From the NCBI GenBank assembly GCA_030410095.1, contig JAUFRC010000004.1, positions 1 through 64,000 of the forward strand: a stretch of 64,000 nucleotides of DNA, in the 5' to 3' direction. Positions 1,158-31,584 of the stretch are shown here, piece after piece (positions within the stretch are counted from its first letter, which is position 1; the number at the start of each line of letters is the position of its first letter). The notes beneath the pieces were generated by a model. It was given only the letters and a program-made list of their open reading frames with translations. It did no database searches and was not told where the DNA came from. Both the position numbers and the translations under genes were made by a program. This DNA comes from Paracoccus cavernae (GTDB taxonomy: Bacteria > Pseudomonadota > Alphaproteobacteria > Rhodobacterales > Rhodobacteraceae).

Positions 1158-2475
1158 TGAACCGCGCCGAGTTTGCCGGAGGCTGATTTGTGTTAGTTAC
1201 GCGGCCATGTCTTCAGTTTCCAGAGCGGCGTAGAAGTTAGCCTCTGCTTCCGCCGGAGGGATGTTCCCGATCGGCTCGAGCAAGCGGCGGTTGTTGAACC
1301 AGTCGACCCATTCGAGGGCGGCATATTCGACGGCCTCGAAGTTGCGCCACGGCCCGCGCCGATGGATGACCTCCGCCTTGAAGAGGCCGTTGATCGTCTC
1401 GGCCAACGCGTTGTCGTAGCTGTCTCCGACGCTGCCCACGGATGGCTCGATGCCGGCCTCACCCAGCCGCTCGGTGTAGCGAATGGACAGGTATTGCGAT
1501 CCGCGGTCGGAATGGTGGACGAGCCCCGCGCCCTTGACCGGGCGGCGATCATGGACAGCCTGTTCAAGAGCATCGAGCACAAAGCCTGCGTGAGCTGTCT
1601 GGCTCGCCCGCCAGCCGACGATCCGGCGTGCGTAGGCGTCGATGACGAAAGCCACATACACGAAGCCCCTCCAAGTGGCGACGTAGGTGAAATCGCTAAC
1701 CCAGAGCATGTTCGGCGCTGGAACCCTGAACTGCCGGTTCACCTTGTCCAAAGGGCATGGAGCCTTTTTATCCGGCACTGTCGTTCTGTGCGGCTTGCCG
1801 CGGATAATGCCTTGAATGCCCATATCCTTCATCAGCCTGGCGACTGTGCAGCGGGCGACATCGAAGCCTTCCCGATCCAGCTGACGCCAAACCTTGCGCA
1901 CGCCGTAGACCCTCCAGTTCTCCTCGAACACGCGCTCGATTTCTGGCCGCAGGACTGCGTCGCGCCGGGTGCGATCCGACAACCGGGCCGGATCGGCACG
2001 CTTCGCCAGGTGATCGTAGTAGGTGGACGGGGCGATCGGCAGAACCCTGCAAATCGGCTCGACCCGTGCTCCCCTCGCTGATCGTCGATGAATCCGACCA
2101 TCACTTCGACCGGAGGTCAGCTCCGCCATCGCAAAATATGCGCTCGCCTTGCGCAAGATCTCATTGGCCTGGCGCAATTCCCGGTTTTCCCGCTCCAGCG
2201 CCTTCAACTTCTCCGCCATGTCGGTCGGGATGCCAGCGCGCTTTCCGCTGTCGACCTCGGCCTTTTTGACCCAGTCGTTCAGCGTCTGGGGCGCACAGCC
2301 AATCTTCGCCGCGATCGACATGACTGACTGCCAGCGCGATCCATGCTGACCTTCATTGTCGAGGACCAAGCGCACCGCACGTTCGCGCACTTCGGGGAAA
2401 ACTTGTTCGTCGTCTTGCTCATGATGCTCCATCCTACTCAGGAGTTGGAGCCTCCGGCAAACTCGGCGCGGTTCA
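1158..2475 (-). mobile_element. Complete IS3-family insertion sequence
   Basis: A 1318-bp element bounded by perfect 27-bp inverted repeats beginning TGAACCGCGCCGAG (1158-1184 and 2449-2475). It is flanked by GCC target duplications at 1155-1157 and 2476-2478. TGA...TCA ends and a 3-bp duplication are typical of IS3. Ends plus transposase make this a potentially active copy. A related left-end fragment lies at 5960-6016. Confidence 0.9.
1197..2432 (-). CDS. IS3-family transposase (OrfAB in one frame)
   Basis: 411 residues. The N-terminal part is an OrfA-like helix-turn-helix plus leucine zipper (residues about 10-95, ending [11 protein letters not shown]). The rest is an OrfB rve/DDE integrase domain: D in WVSDFTYV, D in HHSDRGSQY and E in [14 protein letters not shown]3 elements normally make OrfAB by -1 frameshifting between two ORFs. 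Here both halves share one frame, while the usual OrfB start ([11 protein letters not shown]) is readable in another frame at the junction. The fusion may thus be a local indel pair or a natural variant. Confidence 0.88.
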
Positions 2476-4131: not shown

Positions 4132-5969
4132 CTCAATTGCCCGCGATCTGATTGGCGAGATCGAGTTCCGCCGCACCCTGACCGGGCTGCGCGCTCGCTC
4201 ACCGATGTCGGTCGCAAGGCGAGTAGCGCCTTCGGTTTCACTGCGAAAGCCCGCAACCTCTGGCGCATGGCGCAGGGGGCAAACGCAGTTGTCCTCAAGA
4301 AGATCTCGCGTGGAGGCACCCATAGCGCCAAGCAGCTCGGCAACCAGTTCGATTACCTCTTCGGAAAATCGACCTCCCTCTTCGGCAATATGGTCGAGCA
4401 TGATCCGAACGGCCGGTCCTTGAGCAAAGAAGAGCGCAAGGAGATCGTGGAGATGTGGAGCGACGCGTGGAGCGGCGCGCCCAAGAATGGGCAGACCACG
4501 CATTTGCTTTTGTCCTTTCCTGCCGATCTGTCTCCCAAGAAGGCCAAGCTGATTGCCGAGGCCTGGGCATCGGAGATGTTCCAATCGGGTGCCCATGCGG
4601 ATGATGAATGGGCCTATGTCGCGGCGCTGCATACCGATCGGGCCAACCCGCATGTCCATATCGTCGTGAACAATCGCGGGGTCGAGAACGGGACGTGGTT
4701 CTTTATGTCCAAGAGCCATGTCTTCAATCTGGCTATGATGAAGGAGCGGCTTGTCGAGATCGGGGCCGAGGATGGGGTCCATCTGGATGCGACCTCGCGT
4801 CTTGAACGCGGTATCCTGAGCTACGGCCCATCGCGAGCCGAGATCGAGGGAGCCAAGCGTGAGCACCGTCCGGTGCGTGAGCGGATGCGCGAGGGCAGGG
4901 CGCTTCAGGATGCTTTGGCCGAGATCACGGTCAACGCGGCGCTGATGCGCAGGTTGGCGGGTTACGCCGATCAGGTGTTGAAGGCAGAGGTTGCGGCCAA
5001 CTTTATCAAGGCTGCGTCGATCCTCGAGCGCGGCGGGATCATTCTTCCCAAAGACATGGAGATTTCGATGCAAGAGCAGACTGCACAGACCAGCTCCGAT
5101 CTGCGCCAGGAGTTTGCTGGCTGGTTCGAGAATGCTGAAGAACGGATTGCCCAAAAGGATGCCCATAGACGGCAGGATTTGCGTCGCCAGCTTTACGCGG
5201 TCAGCGGCAATATTCTGGCGTCACTGGGCGATGACCGAGGGGCCGAGTTGATGCGGCGCGGTCCGCGTGCCGCAGTCTACCAGACACAGTTGGAAAGCGG
5301 GCAGATCACGCGCGACGGCACAGCCGCATCCGTCTCGCCGATTGCGTCTGCGGAGATGCGGAAGGGCATTCAGGCTGAAGCCGCCAAGATCGGGATTGGA
5401 TCTGAAGAAATCGCACGGCGGATTGAGACCGGCGCGGGCAATGCCTGGCAAGAACGTGAATGGATAAAGGCCGATCTTCTTGCTGTTGCGGAAGCGAAAC
5501 GGTTGGACCTGATACGCGAGAAGGATCGAGGGCTGGCGGCCGAGTTGGTGGACGGGTTCTATTCACAGGCGGCCAAGATTGTGGACCGTGCGCTGGAGCA
5601 TACGCATCACCACACCAACGACAGACTGACCCGCACGCTCCAGAGCATGGCGCAGGGCGTGGCCCAAGGGCAGGATCTGCAGTTCGGGCATGAGGAACAG
5701 GCCGAACGGTTCACCCATGATCTGAGAGAGCGATATGGCAGCGATGTTATTCGCCGGATCGCCAAGGGTGATGATCGCGCGCTTGCAGTTGATTTCCCGA
5801 TGCCGAGAAGCGCAAGGAAGTTGCTCTGTCCATCCTTTCCGCCGCGAAAAGTCATCAGAGCCTCGGCCTGTCCCTGCGCGAGGTCGAGCAGAGCTTCGAG
5901 CGGTTGCAGCAGCGTGAGGGTGCAGTGCAGGATCGCATCAACGAGCGCGATGATGGCTGGAGTGCCTGA
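4124..5969 (+). CDS. MobA/VirD2-family relaxase, frame broken twice
   Basis: The relaxase nicks oriT and is carried into the recipient on the DNA 5' end. The main frame (4267-5790) shows a Tyr region (QFDYLFGK) and the three-His motif III HTDRANPHVHIVV. The start at 4124 (MSNSIARDLIGEIEFRRTLT) joins this frame if one G is added to 4184-4186. The C-terminus (DAEKRKEVALSILSAAKSHQ) needs one C added at 5796-5798. A long helical C-terminal domain follows the nickase domain. The 3' end at about 5960 abuts an IS3 end remnant, so the last residues may be lost. An internal ATG at 4267 is an alternative start. Confidence 0.75.
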
Positions 5970-19946: not shown

Positions 19947-20010
19947 TGCATTCTCCCGGTGAAAATGGGGTTCAGCAGGCTCGGGTTCGTCGCTGCTGAT
20001 GGGGAGGAAA

Positions 20011-20024
20011 ATGCATTAATACAT
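20011..20024. promoter_or_regulatory. Isolated phage-operator-like site
   Basis: ATGCATTAATACAT closely resembles the operator copies at 24281-24345 and lies upstream of the minus-strand gene ending at 19570. It suggests a second promoter in the same repressor regulon. Confidence 0.4.
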
Positions 20025-20152
20025 ATTTTTGCGTAGCCAAAATGCACATTCTGCCCCGCCCTAACCGGCGCCCACCGATCGGACAGCAAAAAGCCCGTCG
20101 GTGAATGAGCAGGATCACTCCGACATGGGGTGTAAAATTTCCCGTAATCGTG

Positions 20153-20205
20153 TATGATCAGTAATCCGTTCGGTATGCCCGTTCGGTGCTATTGGAGGAC
20201 CAAAC
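20153..20205 (+). promoter_or_regulatory. Promoter-leader repeat 1
   Basis: A TATGAT -10-like box (20153-20158) is followed by a leader with two direct copies of CCGTTCGGT (20166-20174 and 20179-20187), then GCTATTGGAGGACC and the ATG at 20206. The same order occurs in leaders 2 and 3. Confidence 0.55.
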
Positions 20206-20449
20206 ATGGTCCGCGAACGAGAAGAGCGCGCGAGAGAGAGCGATGTTGCGCCGCGCAAGCGAGGCGCTGAAACCATCGCCCTCAGATATCGAACTCGATG
20301 AGCGCGCATCACGAACATTGGATGAGATGGAGCGCAGGGATGAGTTTGCAGCACGAGCTGTAGTGCGCCGTGAGAGCGATCGCATCGCCAAAAGGCGAAA
20401 CGGGAAGAAGCTACGCGAGATCTTGCATGGCGAGGCATCCACGATCTGA
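20206..20449 (+). CDS. Small cassette protein 1 (paralogue of 20560 and 20937 genes)
   Basis: The ATG at 20206 sits where the paralogues start, but its own frame stops after about 31 codons. The neighbouring frame gives LRRASEALKPSPSDIELDER then SRTLDEMERRDEFAAR and SDRIAKRRNGKKLREIL, aligning with the C-terminal halves of the two following genes. A single indel near 20209 or an internal ATG at 20244 would explain it. Charged, helical, no known family. Confidence 0.5.
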
Positions 20450-20501
20450 GCAAGGTGCGCTGATATCGCGTCTTATTTGGTTGTGGGTAAATTCGGGTCG
20501 T

Positions 20502-20559
20502 TATGATAGTTTAGGCTATCCCGACGGTATGCCCGCTGGGTGTTATGGAGGGCCTGCTT
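20502..20559 (+). promoter_or_regulatory. Promoter-leader repeat 2
   Basis: TATGAT (20502-20507), then CCGACGGTATGCCCGCTGGG and TGTTATGGAGGGCCTGCTT before ATG 20560. Same spacing and order as leaders 1 and 3. Confidence 0.55.
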
Positions 20560-20778
20560 ATGGGCCAAAATCCAAGAGATGGTCGGCGACGCTACTCCGC
20601 CTTGCAACCGTCCGCAGATGAGATCGACAACCTCAGAACGAACAAACAAGTTGATCAGGCATTTAAAGATGCAGTCGACAAACTTGATCGGGATGAGGTC
20701 AGCGCAATGCAAGTAAAGCTTGAAGAAGACCGTATATCGACTTGGAAACGCCATTTCGATGCGCTTGGCGGATCATAG
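20560..20778 (+). CDS. Small cassette protein 2
   Basis: 72 residues starting MGQNPRDGRRRYSALQPS, then a charged helical part (DQAFKDAVDKLDRDEVSAM, ISTWKRHFDALGGS). GGAGG precedes the ATG and a strong terminator follows. The N-terminal MGxNPRxG and the C-terminal KRHxD pattern are shared with the next gene. Not recognised in any family. Confidence 0.6.
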   Translation: MGQNPRDGRRRYSALQPSADEIDNLRTNKQVDQAFKDAVDKLDRDEVSAMQVKLEEDRISTWKRHFDALGGS

Positions 20779-20788
20779 CCTGCATCTA

Positions 20789-20820
20789 GAAAGGCGGCGA
20801 GGAGCGCCTCGCCGCCTTTC
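20789..20820 (+). terminator. Rho-independent terminator after cassette 2
   Basis: A perfect 14-bp stem GAAAGGCGGCGAGG/CCTCGCCGCCTTTC with a 4-base loop, 11 bases after the stop. Confidence 0.85.
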
Positions 20821-20881
20821 GATAGCACAAAATTTCCGCCGGTTATGCCAATACATCTCACTCAAATTCGTCTTTATATGC

Positions 20882-20936
20882 TATAATCGATACATCCGCG
20901 CGGTATCGCTACGCGGTGCTATGGAAAGGCCTGCAC
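20882..20936 (+). promoter_or_regulatory. Promoter-leader repeat 3
   Basis: TATAAT (20882-20887), then CCGCGCGGTATCGCTACGCG and GTGCTATGGAAAGGCCTGC before ATG 20937. The -10 to ATG distance is 55 bp (53 and 58 bp in the other two). Confidence 0.55.
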
Positions 20937-21167
20937 ATGGGTCACAATCCGAGAAGCGGCAAGCATAGGGATGGTAGCCAGATCCCGGCCGCTAGTTACC
21001 TGAGCCACAAAATGACAGCCCTAGAGGCTGACATTGCCTACCAACGCGCCATCGATAGGCTGGATCTATCAATCAACGTTGCCGAACAGCATATAATCGA
21101 CCACTCAGCGGTAGCTATAGCCAAGCGCCACAGTGATGTGTTGATGTGGCTGGGTTTGGTAGGTTGA
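20937..21167 (+). CDS. Small cassette protein 3
   Basis: 76 residues starting MGHNPRSGKHRDGSQIPA, then ALEADIAYQRAIDRLDLSIN and AVAIAKRHSDVLMWLGL. Paralogue of the 20560 gene by start motif, spacing and C-terminal pattern. The in-frame ATG at 20916 is less likely because it would swallow the leader ribosome site. Confidence 0.6.
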   Translation: MGHNPRSGKHRDGSQIPAASYLSHKMTALEADIAYQRAIDRLDLSINVAEQHIIDHSAVAIAKRHSDVLMWLGLVG

Positions 21168-21175
21168 AGCAGTTT

Positions 21176-21200
21176 GCGGCGAGGAAACCTCGCCGCTTTT
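21176..21200 (+). terminator. Rho-independent terminator after cassette 3
   Basis: A 9-bp stem GCGGCGAGG/CCTCGCCGC with loop AAA and TTTT tail, directly after the cassette 3 stop. The stem sequence matches part of the cassette 2 terminator. Confidence 0.85.
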
Positions 21201-21261
21201 CAATTGCGCACCAAAAAGCCCGCCGGTTAGGGCAAGCTGTTGGACAGGCGAATTTTATTTA

Positions 21262-21465
21262 TCAGGCAGAAAGGTGGTCGGCGCCCTCTATCTCTTGGGC
21301 CTGCCTTATGCGCTCGGCAATTTCTCCATACTTCCCGAAGCTGACGCCGCAGCTGTTGCAGTGCGCCATGGTGTCATCATTCCAACCATCTGGAAGCGTG
21401 ATTTTCGCAGGGCTGTCACCACAGGAGGGGCAGGGAAAGCTCAGTACTGGCGTATGTTCGCTCAA
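21262..21465 (-). CDS. Small zinc-ribbon protein
   Basis: 67 residues with two CxxC pairs (FPCPSCGD and HCNSCGVSFG) spaced like a treble-clef zinc ribbon. Such proteins are common among phage early genes. It lies with other minus-strand small phage-type genes downstream of the S24 repressor. Confidence 0.55.
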   Translation of the reverse strand: MSEHTPVLSFPCPSCGDSPAKITLPDGWNDDTMAHCNSCGVSFGKYGEIAERIRQAQEIEGADHLSA

Positions 21466-23601: not shown

Positions 23602-24269
23602 TTAAACCTTCTTCCCCAGCCAGATCACCTTGCCGACTACATGAATATCCGTTCGGGCCATCTTGCTTGGCGGATAGGCCGAGTTGTCGGAGATAATCAT
23701 CACGTCACCATCTGACGCGCGCCCCACGCGCTTGACGTGCAGCGCATCCCCGAAGCGCAGGACGAACAGCCCGTCGTAATCAAGGCTCGTCTTCGACGTG
23801 TCGAGCATGACCACATCGTCATCCTTGATTGTCGGATCCATGCTTTCGCCCTTCACCCCGATCACTTTAAGGAAGCGCGGGTGCGTCTTGGTGACCCTCT
23901 CGAGGTATCCAAGCGGGAACGAAATCCGGTCGATTACATCCTCTGCCTCGACTATCGCGCCGTGGCTGGCGCTCGCGCGCACATCGTGTACGTCAACCAT
24001 CGCGGAGCCGTTGTTGTCGTCGCCGTCGCGTGCTGGCGCGCTGACTATGGTTCCCGAAGCTCCCGGCATGAATGGCAGGTAAGGAACCCCCGTCGCGGTC
24101 TGTATCTTGTCGAGCGTCCTTCTGGACAGGTCGAACTTGTGATCGGGACTATTGAGGGGCGCGTCAGGGTCGTGGAGGAAACGCCAGCCGCAGCCGCCAG
24201 CGAGGTGGCATTCATGCCGCACTCGCTCATGACGTGGGTGATGTAATTCAGGGTCCAATTATCAGGCAT
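23602..24269 (-). CDS. S24-family phage repressor (CI/LexA-like), frameshifted
   Basis: The N-terminus is a Cro/CI-type helix-turn-helix (NYITHVMSECGMNATSLAAA AGVSSTTL). The C-terminus is an S24 peptidase domain with catalytic Ser in VKGESMDPTIKDDDVVMLD and Lys in LHVKRVGR. One C added to the run at 24156-24159 joins the halves, giving about 222 residues. Such repressors hold lysogeny and self-cleave after DNA damage. The divergent gene at 24355 and the three operators between them reproduce a lambda-like switch. Confidence 0.8.
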
Positions 24270-24354: not shown

Positions 24355-24570
24355 ATGGAGGCTCAATCTATGCACATCATCCACCCCGACAACATTCCAG
24401 AGATGGAGATTGCCCTCGCGAAGCGGGGCATTCCGGTCGCTGAAATGTGCCGCATGGCCTCGGTCGCCGAAACGACTTGGGGCCGCTGGAAGCGCAAGGA
24501 GGTTAGCCCGACCTTTCGCTCTTGGGATCCGGTCGCGACCGCCTTTCTCCAACAGAGGTGGTTCGGTTGA
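24355..24570 (+). CDS. Cro-like phage DNA-binding protein, 3' truncated
   Basis: Reads MHIIHPDNIPEMEIALAKRG from 24370 (or MEAQS from 24355), then PVAEMCRMASVAETTWGRWK, a helix-turn-helix with recognition helix near residue 40. Divergent from the S24 repressor across the operators, as expected for a Cro-type regulator. The C-terminus changes character after about 24555 where the IS3 fragment begins. Confidence 0.55.
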   Translation: MEAQSMHIIHPDNIPEMEIALAKRGIPVAEMCRMASVAETTWGRWKRKEVSPTFRSWDPVATAFLQQRWFG

Positions 24571-28110: not shown

Positions 28111-28275
28111 TTAGGAACGCTGGCTGCTTTTGCCTTTATCCGCATCGGCTTGATGCTTTTGCCCTTGCGCAGGGTCGTCAGCCTGCTGAGGGGATTTGTC
28201 GCGTTCCTGAGCTTGTTGCGGCTGTTTAGCGGCGCTTTGGTCAGATTTTTGACCTTGCTTGTCGTCGGGGCCCAT
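28111..28275 (-). CDS. Small Gln/Lys/Asp-rich hypothetical protein
   Basis: 54 residues (MGPDDKQGQKSDQSAAKQPQ ...). GGAGG lies 7 bases before the ATG. Low-complexity, hydrophilic and probably disordered. Similar small proteins accompany stress genes in alphaproteobacteria, and it lies just upstream of a csp/DUF892/TspO set. Confidence 0.5.
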   Translation of the reverse strand: MGPDDKQGQKSDQSAAKQPQQAQERDKSPQQADDPAQGQKHQADADKGKSSQRS

Positions 28276-29012
28276 AAGGGATCCTCCATAAATCCGCGTC
28301 GGGATACGCCGCGGATTAACTTGATATAGTGGTCTGCTCGCCTGCCGCCTAACGGAAGCGCGAAACTATCTTCCACAGTCCTGTTATCAAACGAAACAAA
28401 ATTCGCAAAATTTATCCATTGTGAAGCCGCTGCCCCACAGCAACCAAGGGCACGCCCACGATCCAAGACGCATGGGATCGCATCGAAGACCACATACGAA
28501 TTCGCCTATGCATAAGCGGCGGAGAGGAGCGCAGGTGCTCATAGGTAGATTTGCCCATGCCTTTTAGACAAGCAACCCGCGCGAGCCTTTGGCGTTATCC
28601 ACCCGTAACCAGTTTGCGTGGTGATTGTAACGAGTGCGAGAGTTCAGTGACCGTGCAGCCTTTGGCTCGCCGGTCGCTACGCATTAACGCCCCTAGTCCT
28701 TGATCCAGCTGGGCGTCGTGTCATCCACCTCAACGATCATGTTCTTCGCGCCCAGTTTCCTGCACCATGCGCAATGGCAGCTGGCCCAACGGCAATGCAG
28801 ACGAACTGACTGCAAATTCTTTATAGCAATAACAATGGCTAAGCGCTGGCGACCCGGATCTGTCGACTCGCTCGTAGCAAATCAACGCGGATTACCCTAT
28901 ATAGATCATGCATCTTATGTTTCTCGGACCTGTTCCTTTCGGCTCAGCTTTCGACCGTCAGCTCTGCCAAGCCGTCGCATTTTGCGGGCGGCGCTTATAA
29001 AGGAATATCACG
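28276..29012. other. Gene-poor stretch with one orphan coding tail
   Basis: No full gene. On the minus strand 28693-28758 reads KLGAKNMIVEVDDTTPSWIK D then stop, which looks like a genuine C-terminus without its gene. The last 200 bases before 29013 form a long csp 5' region, a common feature of cold-shock genes. Confidence 0.35.
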
Positions 29013-31467: not shown

Positions 31468-31584
31468 ATGTGCGTTCCTCCATGAGACTGGCCATCGCTA
31501 CACTCAACTGCGAGGCGTGTTGAACCGTTCCTAGTCCTAAGCTGCGGCGGCTAATGCTGGGAGGGTCGGCGCAGAGCATTGACG

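Follow-up and report, generated by a model that had tools for sequence, protein, structure and literature searches.

Three tandem small genes in the window (the whole stretch of DNA analysed, 64,000 nt from Paracoccus cavernae) are each preceded by the same short leader. This repetition raises the question of whether the leader is a binding site for a shared regulator, an element acting as RNA, or part of a self-contained cassette that has undergone serial duplication. All three options were named in the original prediction, made from the sequence of the window, and that interpretation is, taken as a whole, partly supported by the comparisons described below.

The cassette array

The recurring series of box, leader and ATG described at 20153, 20502 and 20882 is real. 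The -10-like boxes are TATGAT (nt 20153–20158), TATGAT (20502–20507) and TATAAT (20882–20887), all on the forward strand, and the ATG follows at a distance from the box of 53 bp in cassette 1, 58 bp in cassette 2 and 55 bp in cassette 3; a consensus scan of nt 20000–21300 found no full sigma-70 promoter. The whole leaders occupy nt 20164–20208, 20518–20562 and 20894–20939 (forward strand), and their core is a 29-nt direct repeat starting at 20164, 20518 and 20894, the second and third copies being 79% and 72% alike to the first. A loose leader pattern, composed only after the leaders had been seen, matched four times in the window (the three cassettes and a reverse-strand site at 28316); 100 block-shuffled windows gave 0.06 matches on average.

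The leader is predicted to form two hairpins, P1 and, over the start codon, P2. Three covariance models were used: R1, built from the three cassette leaders (W1, W2, W3) and L039; R2, from 26 leaders; and R3, from 41. In leader 1, P1 (nt 20164–20186, from covariation) has arms at 20166–20173 and 20179–20186 around the loop TATGC (20174–20178), the Shine-Dalgarno sequence GGAGG lies at 20194–20198, and P2 (20197–20212) pairs 20197–20202 with 20207–20212, taking in the final two letters of the ATG at 20206–20208; R1 matches nt 20161–20200 and R2 20161–20201. Leader 2 has P1 at 20518–20540 (arms 20520–20527 and 20533–20540, loop TATGC), its Shine-Dalgarno sequence at 20547–20551 and P2 at 20551–20566 (20551–20555 with 20562–20566), and is matched by R1 and R2 at 20515–20554 with 50.7 and 49.4 bits. 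In leader 3, which both models match at 20891–20930, P1 lies at 20894–20916 (arms 20896–20903 and 20909–20916, loop TATCG), while P2 (20928–20943; 20928–20932 with 20939–20943) is seen in the local fold but is absent when the whole leader is folded. The two CCGnnCGGT units of the original prediction are present in these leaders, but as the two arms of the single hairpin P1 and not as separate units, since the arms change jointly and remain complementary.

A fourth leader, outside the array, lies on the reverse strand at nt 28273–28316. Its P1 (28316–28292) has the stem ATCCGCGGCG/CGACGCGGAT and the loop TATCC, its Shine-Dalgarno sequence is at 28287–28283, and its folded P2 is weak (28280–28278 with 28273–28271). 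It scores 29.4 bits with R1 (28319–28280, reverse) and 45.2 bits with R2, and behind it is a small protein of 54 aa (MGPDDKQGQKSDQ..., nt 28111–28275, reverse) of the kind termed class I below. Close to this leader is a TspO gene with a Shine-Dalgarno sequence, CTCATGGAGG, like that of the leaders directly upstream of its ORF (31468–31490, reverse); no P1 was seen by eye upstream of that ORF.

Diverged paralogues starting with MGxNPRxG had been predicted in all three cassettes, and this holds for the second and third. Small protein 2 (72 aa, MGQNPRDG..., nt 20560–20778, part of ORF 20545–20778) and small protein 3 (76 aa, MGHNPRSG..., nt 20937–21167, part of ORF 20916–21167), both class II and on the forward strand, are paralogues with 33% identity (E = 7e-6); proteins similar to protein 2 are present in loci L064 and L076. 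The predicted start fails in gene 1, where the leader ATG (20206) opens a frame of 31 codons only. The frame that resembles protein 2 (20186–20449, forward, starting at GTG 20186 or ATG 20243) is out of frame with that ATG, and none of 500 shuffles scored equally well. The three assembled copies of gene 1 conflict at 20231 and 20239, which indicates that the gene is either misassembled or broken. Matching terminators had also been claimed for the last two genes. The palindromes are indeed related, the terminator-like hairpin behind gene 3 (21176–21196) having CGGCGAGG/CCTCGCCG in common with the palindrome behind gene 2 (20789–20820, a possible terminator with 14 nt of inverted repeat, 100% complementary), but the consensus terminator scan flags the former and is silent on the latter. 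The same scan reports a terminator-like site behind gene 1 (20452–20474). As each cassette has its own -10-like box, leader, ORF and palindrome behind it, we propose, in line with the earlier suggestion, that the array arose by serial duplication of a single self-contained unit (promoter, leader, small ORF and palindrome) in a mobile accessory region.

Plasmid context and assembly

Contig C4 (135,251 bases) is terminally redundant: nt 1–40333 recur at 94883–135251 (99.66% identity, 87 gap openings), and contig C5 is a second assembly of much of the same molecule. The molecule carrying the window is circular, a plasmid of roughly 94.9 kb whose assembly ran past closure and contains indel errors. 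Given the terminal redundancy of C4 and the repeat in C5, the tri-cassette, though present three times in the assembly, counts once, and biological amplification of the array is ruled out. Because of the many indels between assembled copies, reading frames across the window are unreliable. For the VirB-type genes the match is a plasmid of Paracoccus tegillarcae, at 79.7% identity with 65% covered. An S24-type phage repressor gene (23602–24258, reverse), with transposase genes nearby, and a small HTH-like ORF (24355–24570, forward) without a PHROG match lie between one group of leaders and the other; this stretch is perhaps a decayed prophage immunity region. An ALIL pseudoknot (RF01497), a frameshift signal of IS3-type elements, is found at 2028–2142 (reverse, 85.5 bits).

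Hairpin P1 and the conserved strand

Two alignments were examined. The first, A5, used 26 of 44 matches; 15 were judged by sequence and downstream frame to be chance (L058, L060–L063, L066–L068, L070–L072, L086, L089, L090, L093), and three were duplicates of kept rows (L064, L080, L088). The second, A7, holds 41 distinct leaders from 53 matches; nine repeats were dropped (L106, L125, L126, L143, L127 twice, L131, L133, L135), as were L140 and L144, judged chance, and L073, which lacks a proper ORF, may be a decayed copy and had been included in A5.

The covariation analysis that the original prediction had called for gives a clear result for P1. In A7, 87.3% of cells are paired compared with 67.8% in shuffles, and 60 pair cells are changed on both sides compared with 21.7, a number not reached in any of 500 shuffles; such double changes occur in seven of the eight pairs. 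When the 3' side is slid by 1–3 columns, doubly changed cells number at most 15. A measure counting further pair types is weaker, being reached by 31 of the 500 shuffles, and the earlier alignment of 26 leaders gave a similar picture. These figures lean upward: A7 was fitted to the covariance model, and common ancestry among the leaders means that the counted changes are not independent of one another. Even so, the slid versions fall short by a large margin. Compensating changes keep the predicted stem P1 across the aligned leaders.

The hairpin is 8–10 bp long with a loop UAUYC. Its A is present in 40 of 41 leaders and is among the most constant features; the others are CC and GG at the foot of the stem and, before and within the Shine-Dalgarno sequence, AU and GGA (41/41). 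The latter belong to a nearly invariant strand between P1 and P2, YYAUGGAGG, although the invariance of AUGGAGG is in part a product of the search seed and of how the set was gathered. Counted from the first base of the box, the ATCC of P1 begins after 11, 16 and 12 bp in cassettes 1–3 (6, 11 and 7 nt past the box end), a spacing which, judged from these -10-like boxes, would put P1 at or near the 5' end of the transcript. Folded singly, none of eight leaders was clearly better than dinucleotide shuffles (z from -1.16 to 0.28). In seven whole-leader folds P1 was absent from W2, W3 and L078, and P2 from W3 and L078, so that a switch between folds is possible in these models. A pseudoknot between the loop and the Shine-Dalgarno sequence was considered and discarded on inspection.

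Hairpin P2 over the start codon

P2 lay outside the covariance models and was found by folding the region from the Shine-Dalgarno sequence to about codon 7. It is present in most leaders, its 5' arm being formed by the end of GGAGG plus the spacer and its 3' arm beginning with the G of the start codon or next to it. The arms are GGACC/GGTCC in leader 1 and elsewhere GGACCC/GGGT, GGGCC/GGGCC, GGGC/GCCC or GGGTTTCC/GGAAAACCC, altered jointly. Against plain letter shuffles, the mean z-score of this region is -1.82 in 41 leaders, whereas 204 ordinary start regions drawn from these loci average +0.23 (Mann-Whitney p = 6e-18). A value of p < 0.05 is reached by 25 of the 41 leaders and by 4 of the 204 ordinary regions, and the mean minimum free energies are -9.3 and -4.1 kcal/mol, respectively. 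When the 3' arms of 29 distinct leaders were permuted, a set that retained L138 and L141, whose start was probably wrong, 0 of 20000 permutations were as low as the cognate energy. The cognate arrangement was better in 303 of 370 pairs differing in both arms, and the own partner was the single best one for only 4 of the 29 left arms. Weak arms (above -5 kcal/mol) occur in L074 (two), L075:9205, L079, L138, L141 and window leaders 3 and 4. Compensating changes likewise maintain the putative hairpin P2. The leaders are conserved beyond what a ribosome site needs, as had been thought.

In several class I genes later codons (GGT ACC GAC; residues MGTD or MGAD) likewise pair with GGAGG, and this pairing may be the reason for the recurrence of MGTD and MGAD in otherwise unlike proteins. 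Predicted exposure of the Shine-Dalgarno sequence is cut only in part (median 0.35 unpaired).

Distribution of the leader

The leader extends beyond the three cassettes, to the fourth copy and to other genomes. Five of 80 other members of the genus contain its 3' half, GGTGYTATGGAGG-N-ATG, with a hairpin ahead and small ORFs behind that are unlike those of the window; L036 and L038 have almost the same leader. R1 recovered the known leaders, the fourth window leader and further ones across the genus. With R2, matches at E ≤ 1e-3 occurred in 19 of 125 Paracoccus genomes, one of them the own genome, and matches at E ≤ 0.05 in 33 of 125, the latter count including several chance matches and seven uninspected ones with E of 0.017–0.047 (G114:C1:4140189, G003:C6, G024, G064, G084, G115, G074:C16). 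R3, applied to 394 genomes from 393 genera of the family, matched four genomes other than the own one (E ≤ 0.003). One match (G245), with a 481-aa ORF behind it, was counted as chance, and a leader with a small ORF was found in 3 of 392 other genera (G226, G392, G484); G392 has two R3 matches, the ORF of the stronger one starting with TTG. Both genome-wide model searches used strict filters, with which weak matches are lost. The own genome contributes nothing to the R2 and R3 matches beyond the four plasmid leaders, each counted three times.

The exact leader pattern, in 394 genomes of the family, and the first leader pattern, in 61 relatives, returned the own genome only. A strict pattern gave 14 loci among 84,980 species; true loci came from Paracoccus (five), Tabrizicola rongguiensis (one) and Fuscovulum blasticum (one) (L094, L095, L099, L102, L103, L105, L106), while L096, L097, L098, L100, L101, L104 and L107 were chance by eye. 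As to the phages and plasmids in which a search had been suggested, the strict pattern found three loci in viral contigs, all true, and the first pattern four, one true (L035); similarity searches of the cassette region against plasmids and phages, and of the L083 and L134 leader regions against plasmids, returned nothing. A single 58-base match of the L083 leader region in a phage capsid gene was taken as chance. Loss of leader similarity in homologous loci would have spoken against a shared element; the opposite was seen, the leader persisting where the proteins differ.

At gathering scores, the covariance models of Rfam 15 matched only ALIL in the whole window and nothing at the leaders, nor was there a match at the leader in nine 3-kb leader loci, which agrees with the earlier statement that no known system matches. 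A sub-threshold SpF03 match (31.8 bits, gathering score 50) overlaps leader 3 at its first bases, on the opposite strand. The leader was not found in searches of the open-licence literature; other Rhodobacterales RNAs on record are SAM/SAH, HRC-8-4 and uORFC-8-2 (PMC2864571, PMC8632094). The leaders seem to form a structured RNA family not described before; its general type, a structured leader at a ribosome site, is known.

Genes behind the leader and their neighbours

The ORFs behind the leaders are short and of two kinds. Class I (28 leaders) comprises proteins mostly of 43–66 aa (the L079 frame has 89), rich in Q, P, K, D and E and starting with MG[AT]D, MSAP and similar. Their promoters have GATGTA at the -35 place in 17 of 28 cases and many CCC[CT]AT-type -10 boxes (CCCCATATCT), which we take to resemble those of sigma-32. 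In L139 and L132:1352 a TTG stands in the start position. Class II (13 leaders, including the three cassette genes of the window) has proteins of 48–76 aa with a V/F-D-x-L-D helix core, and boxes that are mostly TATGAT, TGTGCTACAAG or TATAAT, those of L076:9949 and L082:7336 being class-I-like. The two classes occur side by side in the window, L076, L082 and L091. Ratios of dN/dS are 0.10–0.20 in five listed class II pairs among L083, L084, L087 and L130, and 0.12–0.57 in class I pairs (one undefined); these values indicate that both classes are real proteins, class II being the more constrained.

None of the small proteins scanned against Pfam, NCBIfam (n = 10) and PHROGs exceeded a curated cut-off or reached E < 0.001. 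Similarity searches found no relatives of proteins 2 and 3 among viral contigs or of protein 2 in 100 host relatives, and there was no match for one class I protein against plasmids, one class II protein against phages and one class II protein against plasmids. Weak matches were to a CrpP-related family (class II protein L083:7429–7614, forward, E = 0.031, with an AWxxGYxAL end), to an H-NS N-terminal domain (E = 0.0027, under its cut-off) and, for protein 2, to a cyclase model (E = 0.0032). The predicted structure of protein 2 is a single long helix (mean pLDDT 69, pTM 0.32).

Neighbouring genes, read in selected loci without a background count, include phage-type genes for lysozyme or N-acetylmuramidase (L074, L088), Erf (L083, L130) and RusA (L083), and stress-type genes for CsbD (L081), DUF892 (L076), cold-shock proteins (L079, L092), a Na+/H+ antiporter with DUF308 (L132) and, near the fourth window leader, TspO; other loci, such as L077, have neither type. 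In a prophage-like region of L087, a BstA abortive-infection gene (4471–5391, reverse; PADLOC, E = 2.9e-120) lies just past the class II leader gene, and in L130 a match to the candidate defence family PDC-M04A (4946–5647, forward, E = 1.7e-33) adjoins the class II leader gene.

Alternative explanations

The leader could be a passive expression module, in which P1 is a 5'-terminal stabilising stem-loop that yields a long-lived mRNA with a strong Shine-Dalgarno sequence, without regulation. This would suit the short distance from box to P1 and account for the free change of the stem sequence, and PMC3997798 cites works in which 5'-terminal hairpins stabilise E. coli mRNA; like the ompA/papA-type stem-loops, the leader would have a hairpin at its 5' end ahead of the ribosome site. 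Unlike them it has a second conserved hairpin at the start codon, and a covarying, folding start site is left unexplained by mere stabilisation, as are the constant loop A and the AU ahead of GGAG in YYAUGGAGG, so that a purely passive role is rather unlikely. An RNA thermometer, whose P2 would melt on warming and free the start site, is more improbable still. In its favour are a hairpin over the end of the Shine-Dalgarno sequence and the start codon, shared with the short ROSE-type thermometers and giving partial occlusion in folds, the many heat-shock-sigma-like -10 boxes of class I, and surroundings that are partly stress genes (CsbD, DUF892, cold-shock, TspO). However, predicted median exposure of the Shine-Dalgarno sequence is nearly flat between 20 C (0.35) and 60 C (0.39) in silico, in folds run without a positive-control thermometer, and the leader differs from the ROSE type in pairing with coding codons, in the extra 5' hairpin with its conserved loop and in lacking an Rfam match. 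No heat-shock family was recognised among the scanned small proteins (Pfam; NCBIfam, n = 10), and window cassettes 1–3 carry other boxes. The 17 class I leaders with GATGTA at the -35 place are without TTG, which a few leaders do have (for instance Tabrizicola L095), and according to PMC3441632 TTG at -35 is important for both R. sphaeroides RpoH factors.

A DNA operator, with tandem CCGnnCGG sites after the -10 box bound by a repressor such as the S24 protein, was among the original suggestions. The sites do lie directly after the -10 box, with near-palindromic units in leader 1, and the S24 gene is about 2.4 kb from leader 3, but a conserved site sequence is not what was found: the arms vary with complementarity kept, which is unfavourable for a sequence-specific protein, and the leader stands under different promoters. 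This reading is very improbable, as is a metabolite riboswitch of the smallest, preQ1- or SAM/SAH-like kind. A small leader working at the ribosome site is compatible with the latter, and a small SAM/SAH RNA (RF01727, limited to Rhodobacterales, with an overlapping host range) precedes metK (PMC2864571); the leader has no match to that or any other Rfam model, has small uncharacterised ORFs where metK would be expected, and is conserved only in a short loop. The mRNAs of type I toxins on plasmids and prophages share with the leader genes short ORFs, tandem copies, a mobile setting and a folded start; unlike their short hydrophobic toxins, the leader proteins look hydrophilic on reading their sequences, and one leader is common to different proteins.

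A candidate translational control element

That one leader type precedes two kinds of protein under differing promoters, with arms that change freely, most likely means that it acts as RNA, one of the options offered at the outset. We consider it fairly probable that the leader is a new structured 5' UTR RNA controlling translation initiation of accessory genes through P1, YYAUGGAGG and P2. The element would consist of about 45 nt of structured 5' UTR plus the first codons. P1 would guard the 5' end of the mRNA and position the initiation site, while P2 would keep the initiation region shut or slow until opened by the ribosome, an RNA-binding protein or a small RNA acting on YYAUGGAGG, the strand between the hairpins being the likely contact for such an opening factor. 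YAUGGAGG resembles CANGGANG, which we take to be the CsrA/RsmA motif. CsrA (PF02599) was found over its cut-off in 0 of 125 Paracoccus genomes, with positive controls in E. coli, B. subtilis and T. maritima, and on this absence CsrA is ruled out as the reader of the leader; the sole sub-threshold match was in G016 (E = 9.6e-4).

A wider model is more tentative and, on balance, somewhat doubtful: the leader may represent a portable class of two-hairpin cis-acting translational control RNAs in Rhodobacteraceae, spread across plasmids, prophages and stress islands together with fast-evolving accessory small genes, in which a single host factor reads P1 and YYAUGGAGG and the N-terminal codons of the client genes (MG[TA]D, MV, NPR) are forced. 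In this well-studied genus the compensatory changes are strong evidence for an apparently undescribed RNA family. Pairing at the start codon is suggested to constrain N-terminal protein residues, and a set of anonymous small ORFs becomes a candidate regulon, with the leader as a marker by which more of its members may be found.
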